DNA of 42,147 bases from contig JAAWOG010000028.1 of NCBI GenBank assembly GCA_022799355.1, positions 1-42,147 on the forward strand, in the 5' to 3' direction. The DNA comes from Lachnospiraceae bacterium. Its GTDB lineage: Bacteria > Bacillota > Clostridia > Lachnospirales > Lachnospiraceae. A model generated the notes under the pieces. The model worked only from the letters and a program-made list of their open reading frames with translations, had not been told where the DNA came from and ran no database searches. Made by a program: the position numbers and the translations under genes. Shown piece after piece: positions 31,172-39,273 of this stretch (within the stretch, counting starts at the first letter, position 1; each line of letters starts with the position of its first letter).

Positions 31172-32311
31172 ATGGCACAGCACTATGATAAGATCATTAT
31201 CGGCGCAGGACTTTACGGCTTATATGCCGCTGATTTTTGTGTCCGAAAAGGTGAGCGCGTCCTTGTTCTCGAATATGACAATGCCCCTTTCCAAAGGGCT
31301 ACCTATATTAATCAGGCGAGAGTCCATATGGGCTATCACTATCCCAGAAGCCTTACCACCGCGATAAAATCCGCCGGCTATTTTCGACGGTTTTATGAAG
31401 ATTTCGGTTTTTGTATCCATGACCGGTTTGACCAGATCTACGCCACATCGGAAAAGTTCTCCTGGACCAATGCAAAGCAGTTTCAGGAATTCTGCGCCGC
31501 GGCAGGCATCAAATGTCTGGAAACCTCACCCGGAAGATACTTTAATCCCGGTATGTGTGACGGTGCCTTTCTGACGGAAGAATACACCTATGATGCAAAA
31601 ATACTTCAGGCATATTATGAAGACAGATTAAAGGAAAACCAAAATGCCGAAATGCTCTTTGGCGTCAGGCTGCATAAAATCGAAAAAGACGGACGCATTT
31701 TTCGGATTACTCTTGAAGATAAAAAAACCTTCGATGCGCCCTTTGTATTAAATGCCACCTATGCCTCCGTCAACCAGATTATTCATAAAACGGACGGTAT
31801 TGAAAAAACATTCTTTGATATCAAATACGAACTCTGCGAGATTATACTCTGCAGGCCCTCGCAGCTTTTACAGGATACCGGCATCACCGTTATGGACGGA
31901 CCTTTCTTTTCCATTATGCCCTTTGGAAAAACAGGACTCCATTCCCTGACTTCCGTAACCTTCACACCGCATGTGACCAGCTACGAGTCAATACCGTCTT
32001 TCGGCTGTCAGCGCGGTATTGAAACGGAGTATATGGGCTGTTCTCCCGGGAAGCTGGGCAACTGCAATACCTGCATCCATAAACCGGATTCCGCCTGGCC
32101 TTATATGTCCCATCTTGCGGATAAATTCCTGAAACCGGAATATGCTTATTCCTATGTGGAATCCCTGTATTCCATGAAGCCTATTTTAAAAAGTTCGGAA
32201 GTGGATGATTCCAGGCCCACGGCAATCCGTGTCATGAGTACATCTCCCACTTTCATCAGTGTACTGTCCGGCAAGATCAACACGGTGTATGATCTCGACG
32301 AATACCTGTGA
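31172..32311 (+). CDS. FAD-dependent oxidoreductase (DAO-type) of a glycan cluster
   Basis: A 379-residue flavoprotein. The N-terminal Rossmann motif KIIIGAGLYGLYAADFCVRKG and the LVLE acidic strand end bind FAD. The motif NQARVHMGYHYPRS that follows is shared, from memory, by FAD proteins in polysaccharide clusters. A Cys-rich insert CSPGKLGNCNTCIH lies near residue 290, unusual for this fold. AGGAAAGGA precedes the ATG. It heads the four-gene rightward unit; oxidising a sugar intermediate is a plausible but unproven role. Confidence 0.8.
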   Translation: MAQHYDKIIIGAGLYGLYAADFCVRKGERVLVLEYDNAPFQRATYINQARVHMGYHYPRSLTTAIKSAGYFRRFYEDFGFCIHDRFDQIYATSEKFSWTNAKQFQEFCAAAGIKCLETSPGRYFNPGMCDGAFLTEEYTYDAKILQAYYEDRLKENQNAEMLFGVRLHKIEKDGRIFRITLEDKKTFDAPFVLNATYASVNQIIHKTDGIEKTFFDIKYELCEIILCRPSQLLQDTGITVMDGPFFSIMPFGKTGLHSLTSVTFTPHVTSYESIPSFGCQRGIETEYMGCSPGKLGNCNTCIHKPDSAWPYMSHLADKFLKPEYAYSYVESLYSMKPILKSSEVDDSRPTAIRVMSTSPTFISVLSGKINTVYDLDEYL

Positions 32312-32341
32312 TCAAACCGCATTTTCGTAAAAATAGAGGCA

Positions 32342-32459
32342 AGATTGAAAATTAAAATTTTCAATCGCGAGATTTGTGTCTGCGCGCTGCTTGTCACAAA
32401 CTCGTTTATGCGCAGGCCAGGCAGCCTGATCCAAAAGCAACGCAGAAATAAGGAAAAAT
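32342..32459 (+). repeat. Structured leader element, copy 1 (full form)
   Basis: The leader ends at the glycosyltransferase ATG. Parts: a 24-bp perfect palindrome (GATTGAAAATT, 32343-32353; complement 32356-32366); a hairpin CGAG-a-TTTGTG (32368-32378) with CACAAACTCG (32395-32404); a small hairpin CAGGC-CAGGCA-GCCTG (32413-32428) enclosed by TGCG/CGCA (32409-32412 and 32441-32444); then AAAAGCAACGCAGAAA and an AAGGAAAAAT ribosome site. A shorter copy lies at 34217-34302. Confidence 0.85.
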
Positions 32460-33401
32460 ATGAAAGATAAAAAATTTATTTCCCTGGTCATATACCTGCA
32501 CAACAACGGCGCCTGTCTGAAACACTTTCTGGATCAGGTGCTTCCGGTATGTGATAAAAAATTTGAACAGTATGAGTTGATCTGTGTGGATGACGGCTGC
32601 ACCGACAATACTATGGATATCCTTCGGGAATATATCAGCAAAATTCAGATCGGTATTATGGTAAATGTCGCCCATATGAGTTTTTTCCACGGACTGGAGA
32701 GTTCCATGAACGCCGGGCGTGATCTTGCCATCGGTGACTTTGTCTACGAATTTGACAGTATCCTTGTGGATTACGATCCCGCAATCATTTTATCCGTCTA
32801 TGAAAAACTCCTTGAGGGAAACGACATCGTAGCGGCCAGCAGCCGCGGAAAACTCCGTTTTACTTCCCGGATATTTTATGCCCTCTATAATAAGACCAGC
32901 AGAGGCAGCGGTAAGATCGGACCTGAGACCTTCCGTCTGGTATCCCGCCGCGCCATCAACCGCATCAAAGCCATGGGACATTATATTCCCTACCGAAAAG
33001 CGGTCTACAGGAACTGCGGACTTTGTGCGGCAACGATCAGTTATGACAGTATCCATCAGGGCACGGGCAGGCAGCACAGTGCGGCAGCTTCGGAGCGCAC
33101 CTCTCTTGCCTTTGACTCCTTTATCTATTTTACCAATGTGATGGAGCGGATCTCTACGATTGTCTCCGGCGCGTTTTTGCTTTTATCCGTAGGTATGGGA
33201 CTGTATACCATCTCCGACATCTTTAACAAAAATAAACCCGTGGAAGGCTGGCTTTCCACCATGAGTTTTCTGTCTCTGGGATTTTTCGGTGTCTTTGCCC
33301 TGCTTACGATTATTTTAAAATATTTATCCGTCATGCTGAATCTTATTTTTAAACAACAGCAGTATCTTGTCTCGGATATTGAGAAGATCGTATCCCGGTA
33401 A
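32460..33401 (+). CDS. Family 2 glycosyltransferase with C-terminal membrane anchor
   Basis: A 313-residue GT2 enzyme of the dolichyl-phosphate-mannose-synthase-like type. The N-terminal fold has the nucleotide-binding ELICVDDGCTDNT. The position of the usual DxD reads VYEFDSILVDYDP, so the metal motif is altered (E-x-D). Residues about 225-300 contain two hydrophobic helices (AFLLLSVGMGLYTIS, FGVFALLTIILKYLSV). It would transfer a sugar from a nucleotide donor, probably to polyprenyl phosphate, at the inner membrane. Preceded by leader copy 1. Confidence 0.78.
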   Translation: MKDKKFISLVIYLHNNGACLKHFLDQVLPVCDKKFEQYELICVDDGCTDNTMDILREYISKIQIGIMVNVAHMSFFHGLESSMNAGRDLAIGDFVYEFDSILVDYDPAIILSVYEKLLEGNDIVAASSRGKLRFTSRIFYALYNKTSRGSGKIGPETFRLVSRRAINRIKAMGHYIPYRKAVYRNCGLCAATISYDSIHQGTGRQHSAAASERTSLAFDSFIYFTNVMERISTIVSGAFLLLSVGMGLYTISDIFNKNKPVEGWLSTMSFLSLGFFGVFALLTIILKYLSVMLNLIFKQQQYLVSDIEKIVSR

Positions 33402-33452
33402 CCTGTTTTATTGTAACCCGACAAATAAATTCAGAAAAGGATTCCTGAACTC

Positions 33453-34208
33453 ATGGAACAATCCACAACAGATATCAACATTTTATTTCCGGTACTAAAT
33501 GAACGGCTGAGACTCAAAAACGGCATAGACCGCACCGTTGCCTACGTGCGCAAAAACCTCACTATCCCCTGTAAAATCACCATTCTGGACAATGGCTCAG
33601 ACGACGAAACACCGGACATCGGAAGGCAGCTTGCGGAAAAATATCCCGAGGTTTCCTACGTACGTGTCGGTGAGCGGGGTGTCGGCGTCGCTTTCCGCAG
33701 AGGAATCTCTTTAAATGAGTGCGCCCTGGTAGGTTATATGGATATTGATCTCTCCACAGACATCAAACACCTCGGACAGGCCGTCTCCCTCTTTCAGGAG
33801 AATCCGAAACTGCAGTATGTAAACGGAAGCCGTTTTTCCAAGGCCTCCGACACAAAGGGGCGAAAATGGTATCGGAAGATCACGTCCATGGGGCTTATCA
33901 TTCTGTTAAAGGCATTCTTTCATATGAAAGCAACCGATGCCGTCTGCGGTTTTACTTTTCTGCGCAGAGAAGCTGCCGAAAAGCTGGTTGCCGCCTGCGG
34001 CAATGACAACGGATGGTTTTATACCATAGAATTTCTGCTGCGTGCGGAACGCATGGGTATGTGTATCTATGATATGCCGGTAGAATGGCAGGAGGATTAC
34101 AATACCACGGTCAAAATATGGAAAACCATAAAAAATTATCTGATCCAAATGAAACGGCTGCACCGCGAATTCCGCATGGAATCATCCGGCTCACTGCCCC
34201 GGAAATAA
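33453..34208 (+). CDS. Family 2 glycosyltransferase, second of the pair
   Basis: A 251-residue GT2 enzyme. Motifs: NILFPVLNERLRL, ITILDNGSDDETPD (nucleotide binding), and YMDIDLSTDIKHL with the DxD (MDIDL) that coordinates the metal-sugar donor. No strong membrane span is seen except a hydrophobic stretch near 150 (MGLIILLKAFF). It resembles polyprenyl-phosphate sugar transferases. GAACTC precedes the start and the ribosome site is weak. It follows the first GT by 51 bases without leader element. Confidence 0.8.
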   Translation: MEQSTTDINILFPVLNERLRLKNGIDRTVAYVRKNLTIPCKITILDNGSDDETPDIGRQLAEKYPEVSYVRVGERGVGVAFRRGISLNECALVGYMDIDLSTDIKHLGQAVSLFQENPKLQYVNGSRFSKASDTKGRKWYRKITSMGLIILLKAFFHMKATDAVCGFTFLRREAAEKLVAACGNDNGWFYTIEFLLRAERMGMCIYDMPVEWQEDYNTTVKIWKTIKNYLIQMKRLHREFRMESSGSLPRK

Positions 34209-34216
34209 AGGAGAAA

Positions 34217-34302
34217 AGATTGAACATTAAAATTTTCAATCGCGAGTGTTTTGCGCAGGCCAGTCAGCCTGAGAAAAAAGCAACGCAGAAAGGAGGAAAA
34301 AT
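34217..34302 (+). repeat. Structured leader element, copy 2 (short form)
   Basis: It aligns with copy 1 at both ends: GATTGAACATT-aa-AATTTTCAATCGCGAG, then TGCG-CAGGC-CAGTCA-GCCTG with CGCA in AAAAGCAACGCAGAAA, then AGGAGGAAAAAT directly before the aminotransferase ATG. The 37-base middle hairpin of copy 1 is replaced by 5 bases. Helices are kept while loop bases change (CAGGCA to CAGTCA). Confidence 0.85.
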
Positions 34303-35397
34303 ATGCTCAAAAGAATTGATCTGACCAGAGATTATGAAAAACATAAACAGGAATATATGGACGCCATAGAGGCGGTCTGCCGTGAAACCGCTTTTTCCGG
34401 CGGCAGCTTTGCCGACAAATTTGATGAGGAGTTCGCCCGGTTCTGCGGTGTGCCCTATGCCGCCGGCGTCAACAACGGTACTTCCGCCCTGCACTGCGCC
34501 ATGATGGCGCTGGGTATCGGCAGAGGCGATGAAGTGATCGTTCCGGCAAACACCTTTATCGCCACGGCATGGGGCGTTACCTACACAGGCGCCACACCGG
34601 TATTTGTCGATTGTACCGCCGACACCTGGGAACTCGATCCCGACAAAATAGAAGAAAAGATCACGGACAGGACAAAGGCGATAATCGGTGTACATCTTTA
34701 CGGACAGCCCTTTGAATTTGCCAAAGTAAAAGCTCTTGCCGACAAATACGGACTCTATGTGGTGGAGGACTGCGCCCAGGCACACGGCGCACTTTATGAA
34801 GGAAAGCCTGTCGGCAGCCTTGGAGAGCTGGGATGTTTCAGCTTTTACCCCGGAAAAAATCTCTACGCCTTCGGGGAAGGGGGCAGTGTGACCTGTCATA
34901 AAAAAGAATATTTTGACACGATAACCACGATCAAAAACCAGGGCTGCAAAGTCCGCTACTACCATGATGTGATCGGCTATAACTACCGGCTGGAAGGGTT
35001 GCAGGGAGCTGTTCTCAGCATAAGCCTGAAATATCTGCCGCAATGGACTATGCGCCGGCAGGCGATCGGCAGGCGTTACCACAAAGAGATCACAAATCCC
35101 GCCATAACCATGCAGGTTCATCCCGAAAATACGGAACCCGTATTCCATCTGTTTGTGATCACGGCAGAAGCCCCCGAACATTTCGTATCTTATATGGGCA
35201 GGCGCGGTATAGAATGCCACAGACATTACCCCGTACCCTGCCATCTGCAAAAAGCCTATGCGGATCTGGGATATCAGGAGGGGGACTGCCCGAACGCGGA
35301 GCATCTTGCCCGCCACTGCGTCACACTGCCTCTGTTTCCGGAGATGACGGATGAGGAAGCCGAAATAGTGATCAGAGCGTGTAATGAATATTGTTAA
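34303..35397 (+). CDS. DegT/DnrJ/EryC1-type sugar aminotransferase
   Basis: A 364-residue PLP-dependent enzyme that aminates a keto-sugar nucleotide. PLP site: CFSFYPGKNLYAFGEGG, with the catalytic lysine of the family. Other marks: GVNNGTSALHCAMMALGIGRGDEV, FVDCTADTWELDPDKIE, and VEDCAQAHGA for the cofactor Asp. Length matches the family. The product, probably an amino-deoxy sugar donor, would feed the two glycosyltransferases upstream. Perfect AGGAGG inside leader copy 2. It converges with the rlmI-like gene 17 bases away. Confidence 0.92.
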   Translation: MLKRIDLTRDYEKHKQEYMDAIEAVCRETAFSGGSFADKFDEEFARFCGVPYAAGVNNGTSALHCAMMALGIGRGDEVIVPANTFIATAWGVTYTGATPVFVDCTADTWELDPDKIEEKITDRTKAIIGVHLYGQPFEFAKVKALADKYGLYVVEDCAQAHGALYEGKPVGSLGELGCFSFYPGKNLYAFGEGGSVTCHKKEYFDTITTIKNQGCKVRYYHDVIGYNYRLEGLQGAVLSISLKYLPQWTMRRQAIGRRYHKEITNPAITMQVHPENTEPVFHLFVITAEAPEHFVSYMGRRGIECHRHYPVPCHLQKAYADLGYQEGDCPNAEHLARHCVTLPLFPEMTDEEAEIVIRACNEYC

Positions 35398-38697: not shown

Positions 38698-39273
38698 ATG
38701 AAAATCGGATATGTCAGGGTGAGTACAAAAGAGCAGAATACGGCACGACAGGAGGAACTTATGAAGTCGCTGGATGTGGATAAAGTATACATTGAGAAAA
38801 TGAGCGGCAGGAATACAGAAAGACCTTTCTTACAGGAGATGATGAATTTTGTGCGTGAGGGTGATTCCGTAGTCGTGGAAAGCATTTCGAGGTTTGCAAG
38901 GAATACAAAAGATTTGCTTGAACTGACAGAGGAATTAAATAATAAACATGTTCAGTTCATCTCTCAAAAGGAAAACATTGATACAAACACCCCGGCAGGA
39001 AAGTTTATGCTTACGATATTTGGAGCGGTAGCAGAGTTGGAACGGGAGTACATAAGACAACGGCAGAAAGAAGGCATAGAGATTGCGAAGGAGCAGGGGA
39101 AGTATAAGGGCCGGCCGGCAAAACAATTAGATACATTTGATGAAATTTATCAACAATGGAAGTCCGGAAATATAACGGCTACTTCTGCAAGTATGCAACT
39201 GAATATAAGCAGAAGTACATTTTACAGAAAAGTAACAGCATATGAGGCGGATAATAAGCCGATAGACTTTTGA
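38698..39273 (+). CDS. Serine recombinase (resolvase/invertase type)
   Basis: A 191-residue small serine recombinase. Catalytic Ser9 in YVRVSTKEQN; conserved SISRFARNTKDLLEL contains the active-site arginines; then AGKFMLTIFGAVAELERE, the long E-helix, KYKGRPAK and a C-terminal Hin-type helix-turn-helix (ITATSASMQLNISRSTFYRK). Size and domains fit resolvases and DNA invertases rather than large integrases. No inverted site was found beside it, so target and reaction are open. AAAGGA precedes the start. The HTH gene follows 14 bases later. Confidence 0.92.
   Translation: MKIGYVRVSTKEQNTARQEELMKSLDVDKVYIEKMSGRNTERPFLQEMMNFVREGDSVVVESISRFARNTKDLLELTEELNNKHVQFISQKENIDTNTPAGKFMLTIFGAVAELEREYIRQRQKEGIEIAKEQGKYKGRPAKQLDTFDEIYQQWKSGNITATSASMQLNISRSTFYRKVTAYEADNKPIDF

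Follow-up and report, generated by a model that had tools for sequence, protein, structure and literature searches.

A predicted pseudoknot leader with its own extended Shine-Dalgarno sequence recurs before unrelated genes in a Lachnospiraceae genome

Two closely similar leaders lie in a stretch of 42,147 nucleotides from a Lachnospiraceae bacterium (hereafter the window), one in front of a glycosyltransferase gene and one in front of an aminotransferase gene. What are these leaders, and what might they do at the start codons that they adjoin? An earlier note had taken them for a functional RNA which controls a glycan pathway by translational control or antitermination, and had offered as an alternative a dispersed repeat which happens to carry a ribosome site. 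Comparison within the genome and between species supports a functional RNA and the dispersed repeat alike, the two being compatible, and lends no support to pathway control.

The two leaders and their relatives in the genome

Pairwise comparison finds both structured repeats between co-directional genes, the upstream open reading frames (ORFs) ending at 32311 and 34208. Identity is 88% between 32406-32462 and 34249-34305 (57 nt) and 82% between 32329-32378 and 34204-34253 (50 nt), and a start codon closes each copy (ATG 32460-32462 and ATG 34303-34305). A 32-column alignment gap (32 nt) corresponds to the deletion of hairpin P1 and its loop from copy 2; the CGAG-a-TTTGTG...CACAAACTCG hairpin is present in copy 1 only. 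In all these points the original description was accurate (Table 1). Folding energy alone is unconvincing for the two copies: compared with 200 shuffles, z is -1.5 and -2.1, and 16 and 6 shuffles, respectively, fold as well.

Table 1. Features of the two leaders in the window
Feature	Position	Strand	Basis
Left (native) Shine-Dalgarno sequence (SD) AGAGG before copy 1	32335..32339	+	Sequence; anti-SD duplex -5.8 kcal/mol; SD and ATG directly downstream in sister species
Copy 1, start codon included	32341..32462	+	R1 match, E 2.2e-34; aligned with 13 other copies of the genome
H1, near-palindromic hairpin of copy 1, 24 nt, GATTGAAAATTAAAATTTTCAATC	32343..32366	+	GTGTGAAAAT...ATTTTCACAC in other species, both sides changed
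P1 hairpin of copy 1, CGAG-A-TTTGTG / CACAAA-CTCG	32368..32404	+	Fold; covariation in relatives
P2 5' strand of copy 1, GCGCTGCTT, inside P1 loop	32384..32392	+	8 of 9 pairs with 32435-32443, one C-A mismatch
Optional linker hairpin of copy 1, CAGGC...GCCTG	32413..32428	+	Fold; different hairpins or none in other copies
P2 3' strand of copy 1, AAGCAACGC	32435..32443	+	Pairing and covariation in relatives
Extended SD of copy 1, AGAAATAAGG	32444..32453	+	Two mismatches to AGAAAGGAGG
Glycosyltransferase family 2 gene served by copy 1	32460..33401	+	Pfam PF00535
Left (native) SD AAAGGAG before copy 2	34207..34213	+	Sequence; -8.7 kcal/mol; overlaps stop codon of upstream gene
Copy 2, P1 and loop deleted, no pseudoknot	34216..34305	+	R1 match, E 4.5e-18
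H1 of copy 2, 24 nt	34218..34241	+	Repeat comparison
Extended SD of copy 2, AGAAAGGAGG	34287..34296	+	Perfect complement of 16S tail
DegT/DnrJ/EryC1 aminotransferase gene served by copy 2	34303..35397	+	Pfam PF01041

Used as BLAST queries, copy 2 and the copy of contig C18 reveal the element on many contigs of the same genome (G000), and the 101-nt query of copy 2 retrieves many more copies elsewhere in it, beyond chance. A covariance model built from 14 copies of this genome (R1) has 29 matches in it at E<=0.1, and one built from 22 cores of several species (R2) has 30 at E<=0.001, some of them partial. Because both models contain SD and ATG, the abutment of their hits to genes is partly by construction. 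Among the 20 places with a BLAST match outside the SD/ATG part, 17, including those on C110, C89 and C131, lie directly upstream of an ORF; the copies are thus many, but they are not independent of genes. The exceptions are C25, C23 (no gene) and the first copy on C74, which a second one follows: in this tandem pair (L037, 4000-4218) the second copy stands directly after the SD of the first and before an L-lactate dehydrogenase gene. On C50 the gene, phenylalanyl-tRNA synthetase alpha by sequence, starts some 20 nt past the element. Hairpin H1 is missing in C50, C88 and the first C74 copy. On C23, a copy of the P1 hairpin (L128, about 38992-39022) has no gene start downstream.

Pfam was run on 19 downstream proteins of this genome and one from the sister species G001. 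The families comprise glycosyltransferase 2, DegT, RelA_SpoT, an ABC-2 permease, two ABC ATPases, an M56 peptidase, an exonuclease, hemerythrin, lactate/malate dehydrogenase, glycoside hydrolase 77, a histidine kinase, sigma-70 region 2, Zn_peptidase_2, FolD, cupin and microbial PARG; the protein from G001 is DUF6465, and two of the genome's own proteins have no Pfam family at 1e-8. No pathway is common to these genes. Since the element precedes unrelated gene families, what its sites share is neither a pathway nor the ligand of one, and control of the glycan pathway is unsupported. Antitermination fared no better, as a scan for terminator-like sites found none at the element.

A predicted pseudoknot ending at an extended Shine-Dalgarno sequence

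With the leaders placed side by side, the strand adjoining the ribosome site is complementary to the P1 loop, forming a helix P2; species comparison thus favours as its partner the loop of the very hairpin that copy 2 lacks. The core of the element is predicted to be an H-type pseudoknot that lies immediately ahead of AGAAANGAGG and the start codon: a hairpin loop pairs with a downstream strand, and both helices carry compensatory changes. In 23 sequences chosen for short P1 loops (set A6), two-sided changes occur in 16 of the 18 pairs (10/11 in P1, 6/7 in P2), 92.7% of the cells are paired (98.1% in P2 alone), and the covariation score is 0.495 against 0.251 (sd 0.017) for shuffled sequences, with 0 of 500 shuffles as high. 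When the partners are slid by 1-3 columns, covariation falls to 0.084-0.142 and pairing to 28.6-43.2%. The types of P2 include GCGCTGC/GCAGCGC, GCATGGC/GCCATGC and GTACTGT/ACAGTAC. Helices that are kept while bases vary, as the earlier note had proposed, are hereby borne out, compensatory changes being abundant in homologues rather than absent.

Larger sets agree. Each of the 22 rows of alignment A4, which omits 12 of 34 cores, has a P2 of 6-9 pairs; the score is 15.05, compared to 11.77 with partners swapped (sd 0.47, maximum 12.95 of 500). In the wider family the P2 score is 15.97, against 12.15 (sd 0.28) with 3' strands swapped, for 88 of 91 model matches (three rows left out, and some of the 88 not true pseudoknots); at least 6 contiguous P2 pairs are found in 69 of the 88 and at least 5 in 77. 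A full pseudoknot, with P2 of at least 5 bp within P1 of at least 6 bp, is present in 63 of 85 usable rows (six of the 91 left out) and missing in 22; in 20 shuffles the number with one averages 9.9 and never exceeds 16. P2 covaries also in copies that have the pseudoknot and no H1. Window copy 2 and the copies on C84 and C51 have lost the pseudoknot while the gene was kept; the pseudoknot is therefore not indispensable.

The nested stem TGCG-CAGGC...GCCTG...CGCA, which had been proposed from the two copies, can form in both of them, but the species comparison favours another partner for the strand next to the SD; at most, the nested stem could form in place of the pseudoknot. Its outer stem is a hairpin of the linker with the 3' strand of P2 (P3). 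Enrichment of P3 is mild, the longest match being 3.8 versus 3.1 shuffled overall (83 rows) and 4.2 versus 3.5 in the genome's own copies (12 rows); for the P3-type hairpin in one hand-chosen subset of 16 rows, the mean longest match is 5.0 versus 3.1 shuffled.

Further hairpins differ between copies. H1 reads GATTGAAAAT...ATTTTCAATC in G000 and GTGTGAAAAT...ATTTTCACAC in other species of the genus. At L043 (865-1029), before a sigma-70 region 2 gene, the linker hairpin AAGCCATATTATGGCTT stands in three consecutive units. H1-bearing relatives with a different second hairpin, CTGCG...CGCAG, lie near other genes in L058 (G008) and L059 (G002).

Concerning the ribosome site itself, AGAAANGAGG starts directly after P2 and is complementary, N aside, to the tail of the family's 16S rRNA, CCUCCUUUCU; it is an extended SD. 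In 88 of the 91 rows its ten positions count A76, G86, A81, A88, A81, (T62 A10 G9 C7), G86, A76, G85 and G80, so nine of ten agree with AGAAAGGAGG in 76-88 of the 88 rows. AGAAAGGAGG is the complement of the 16S tail CACCTCCTTTCT, and copy 2 of the window matches it exactly. A search for this tail gave 26 exact matches, spread over 9 of 100 family genomes; none came from the remaining 91 or from 9 genomes of the own genus (0/9), probably because such assemblies miss 16S genes. The spacer between SD and start codon is 5 nt in 26 rows and 6 nt in 53 (79/88 together). At position 6, the T of 62/88 rows is a mismatch to 16S rRNA and at spacer 6 creates an AUG 12 nt before the start, often in-frame; spacer 6 occurs in 43/62 rows with this AUG versus 10/26 without it.

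Upstream SD, sister sites and distribution

Copies of the H1 type have a further SD just left of the element. Among 44 rows chosen by an H1-type motif, some matching by accident, this left SD reaches <=-4.5 kcal/mol in 29, compared to 15% of 617 control windows. Anti-SD binding of the left 14 nt averages -5.9 kcal/mol in these rows and -1.9 in the controls (Mann-Whitney p = 2e-14, which is only indicative because the rows are related and some motif matches accidental). An earlier automatic picking of H1, spurious hairpins included, gave a weak signal (39/73 rows versus 39% of control windows). In G000, 13 of 14 copies have the left SD.

In the sister species G001, G007 and G008, neither window site contains the element, and the ATG follows an ordinary SD instead; this comparison covers three of eight sister species, at about 80% identity, and their records are the same as L047, L048 and L046 and thus not independent of these. 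The window loci have no match at E<=1e-10 in the other five sister species, and by eye six more distant loci (L049-L054) have no element before the glycosyltransferase gene. Since a left SD is present and the sister sites are empty, it looks as though insertion of the element has separated the start codon from its native SD; an insertion which brought along a replacement SD is the simplest reading. Candidate target-site duplications, flanking repeats that include the SD, are seen in a few cases (L190, L198), some of them explained by tandem or older copies. As means of spread, mobilisation by IS200/IS605 was rejected: the Y1 transposase (PF01797) has no match in the incomplete assemblies of G000 and G105 and is found in 7 of 13 genomes searched. 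A phage origin was dismissed as well, the pattern GATTTGTGYCTGCGCGY giving six stretches in viral contigs, none of which is the element. The window ORF 38698-39273 reads like a serine recombinase/resolvase, with no link to the element here.

The covariance-model search which the earlier note had suggested for this genome and other Lachnospiraceae brought up further copies in both. In 120 Lachnospiraceae genomes, one per genus and the own included, R2 has matches in 24 at E<=0.001 and in 18 at E<=1e-4. At the latter threshold 3 of 196 genomes of the class Clostridia are positive, namely the own, one further family member and, as the only one of 190 other Clostridia, that of L208 with a weak P2; fewer candidates per genome were scored in the Clostridia survey, which somewhat inflates this contrast. 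Genomes with many R2 matches are G016 (19), G105 (19), G024 (18) and G102 (16). Old, diverged copies precede rnfB in four species (the own, G001, G004 and G007) and scpA in two (G004 and G005); these single copies keep the pseudoknot. Another old copy, before a zinc peptidase gene, is shared by the own genome and G008. A weak hit in the genus (L093) looks like coding sequence. Four genus members (L090, L091, L112, L099) have a DUF6465 leader with the same P2 strand; these leaders have a promoter-like TTGACA...TATAGA just upstream and no left SD.

In G105, which alone represents its genus in this comparison, a BLAST search at E<=1e-5 with the version found there gives 26 matches, query included. 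Among its 19 loci 12 could be parsed, 9 of them with a left SD at <=-4.5 kcal/mol. The P1 loop of these elements has 4 nt and the P2-like match overlaps P1, hence there is no true pseudoknot. The elements of G105 (e.g. L184, L198, L243-L261) are an independent burst, in which the linker TGCGCA offers an alternative pairing partner to the strand in front of the SD.

Known systems, rival readings and the predicted role

The earlier statement that no Rfam family matches holds at gathering threshold: the window has no RNA but three tRNAs, and 32250-34400, searched up to E = 10, gives chance matches only. Twenty related loci have none at threshold except Clostridiales-1 elsewhere in L102. Of 12 further loci, searched at E<=2, L171 (94.5 bits) and L167 (76.9 bits, below cut-off) have a T-box ahead of the pseudoknot, and L151 has an L20 leader further upstream, also below cut-off. 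L167 and L171 thus have T-box and pseudoknot in succession, two RNA devices in one leader, before PheS-/TyrS-like genes; the pseudoknot is therefore not the specific regulator there.

TD-1 and TD-2 (RF03155, RF03162, clan CL00124), motifs of Treponema, have no match in the own genome or the window. The best TD-1 score is 30.1 bits (L198) with a gathering cut-off of 64.5 bits; none of 18 genomes exceeds it, and at E<=1 matches occur in 2/18 genomes and also in 2/14 control genomes. These sub-threshold matches concern G105 (3 of 4 on identified elements) and one unrelated stretch of G102, which does not show the element. TD-2 reaches 27.5 bits (cut-off 48.7) on the opposite strand of L198, the match taking in the H1 hairpin of G105. 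Only the G105 elements resemble TD-1 in hairpin order and part of the sequence, with a GCGARUUUG...CAAAYxUCGC hairpin, a linker AUUAUGCG and then a hairpin; the loop of the aligned TD-1 consensus, however, is 4 nt and leaves no room for P2. TD-1 and TD-2 may be distant relatives or look-alikes, a lead rather than a membership.

The preQ1-II and SAM-II riboswitches are H-type pseudoknots next to the SD. The element shares this layout, but it has no Rfam match to them in the window or the related loci, and its downstream genes have no pathway in common. Repeats of the MITE or REP type are short and palindromic and occur in many copies at lineage-specific sites. All this applies to the element too, which differs in its position at start codons, its own SD and its covariation at the RNA level, pseudoknot included. 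The element itself was not found in the literature searched, which returned known riboswitches and S15, or in Rfam 15. The pseudoknots of rpsO (S15) and the alpha operon (S4) lie at the ribosome site, as does that of the element, and act on translation initiation (PMC10931766). They serve single genes autogenously, whereas the element stands in many copies before unrelated genes, with its SD outside the knot; its downstream genes are diverse rather than those of a binding ribosomal protein.

We consider it probable that the element is a self-contained translation-initiation leader which has spread in this genome by insertion between native SD and start codon. It is unlikely, in our judgement, that the pseudoknot answers to a trans-acting partner (a ribosomal protein, another RNA-binding protein, a small molecule or temperature) and defines a global translational regulon, as S15 does with the rpsO pseudoknot. 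The targets lack a shared function, the conserved bases other than the SD sit in helices and covary, and copy number varies widely among genera, even though an SD-adjacent H-type pseudoknot is the layout of known translational operators (PMC10931766), the hits, about 30 at most per genome, could make up a regulon, and the linker/P2 3' strand hairpin is enriched in the subset of 16 chosen rows.

A selfish miniature mobile element, which uses its hairpins for its own transposition as DNA and whose SD does no more than make insertion harmless, would also fit several observations: near-identical copies come in bursts in G000 and G105, C74 has a tandem copy, the sites are lineage-specific, and insertion is constantly beside an SD. 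We find this less plausible still: the diverged single rnfB and scpA copies retain the pseudoknot, P2 covaries where H1 is missing, and the IS200/IS605 transposase was not found in G000 or G105. A leader peptide or start-stop element, translated by means of the left SD from a TTG or GTG at the start of H1, is very improbable. Although GATTG or GTGTG follows an SD at a distance of a few nt and the TTG frame is open through copy 1, the frame varies among copies, other species have GTG followed immediately by TGA, C84 is without TTG, and H1 itself is missing from three copies (C50, C88 and the first on C74). The candidate was rejected since the frame is not kept, and the empty sites explain the left SD without a leader peptide.

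The translation-initiation module is thus the mechanism that we favour, as a role predicted from sequence. A new copy would land ahead of a start codon, downstream of the gene's native SD; the old SD would be stranded upstream of H1, and that of the element would take over. As the SD:16S duplex begins where P2 ends, P2 probably stacks on it and would help to place or hold the 30S subunit; the mismatched T at position 6 is unaccounted for by this stacking idea. The module is found where the gene's own SD would act, its helices are kept by selection while the sequence drifts, and it can sit below a separate regulator, as in the T-box cases. More tentatively, it is conceivable that the element is a mobile ribosome-binding-site cassette with a pseudoknot-capped extended SD, inserted between SD and start; here stacking could give an advantage to 30S subunits whose 16S 3' end is fully mature, and bursts could rewire the translation of unrelated genes.

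At the least, the element is an RNA family with strong covariation which Rfam 15 leaves unmatched at threshold. If the favoured reading is true, a pseudoknot would stand upstream of an extended SD whose pairing runs right to the 3' terminus of 16S rRNA, and the effect of structure just upstream of the SD on 30S binding would become testable in a natural, repeated experiment in swapping ribosome sites. A spreading RNA part would then set the translation initiation of unrelated genes in one bacterial family.
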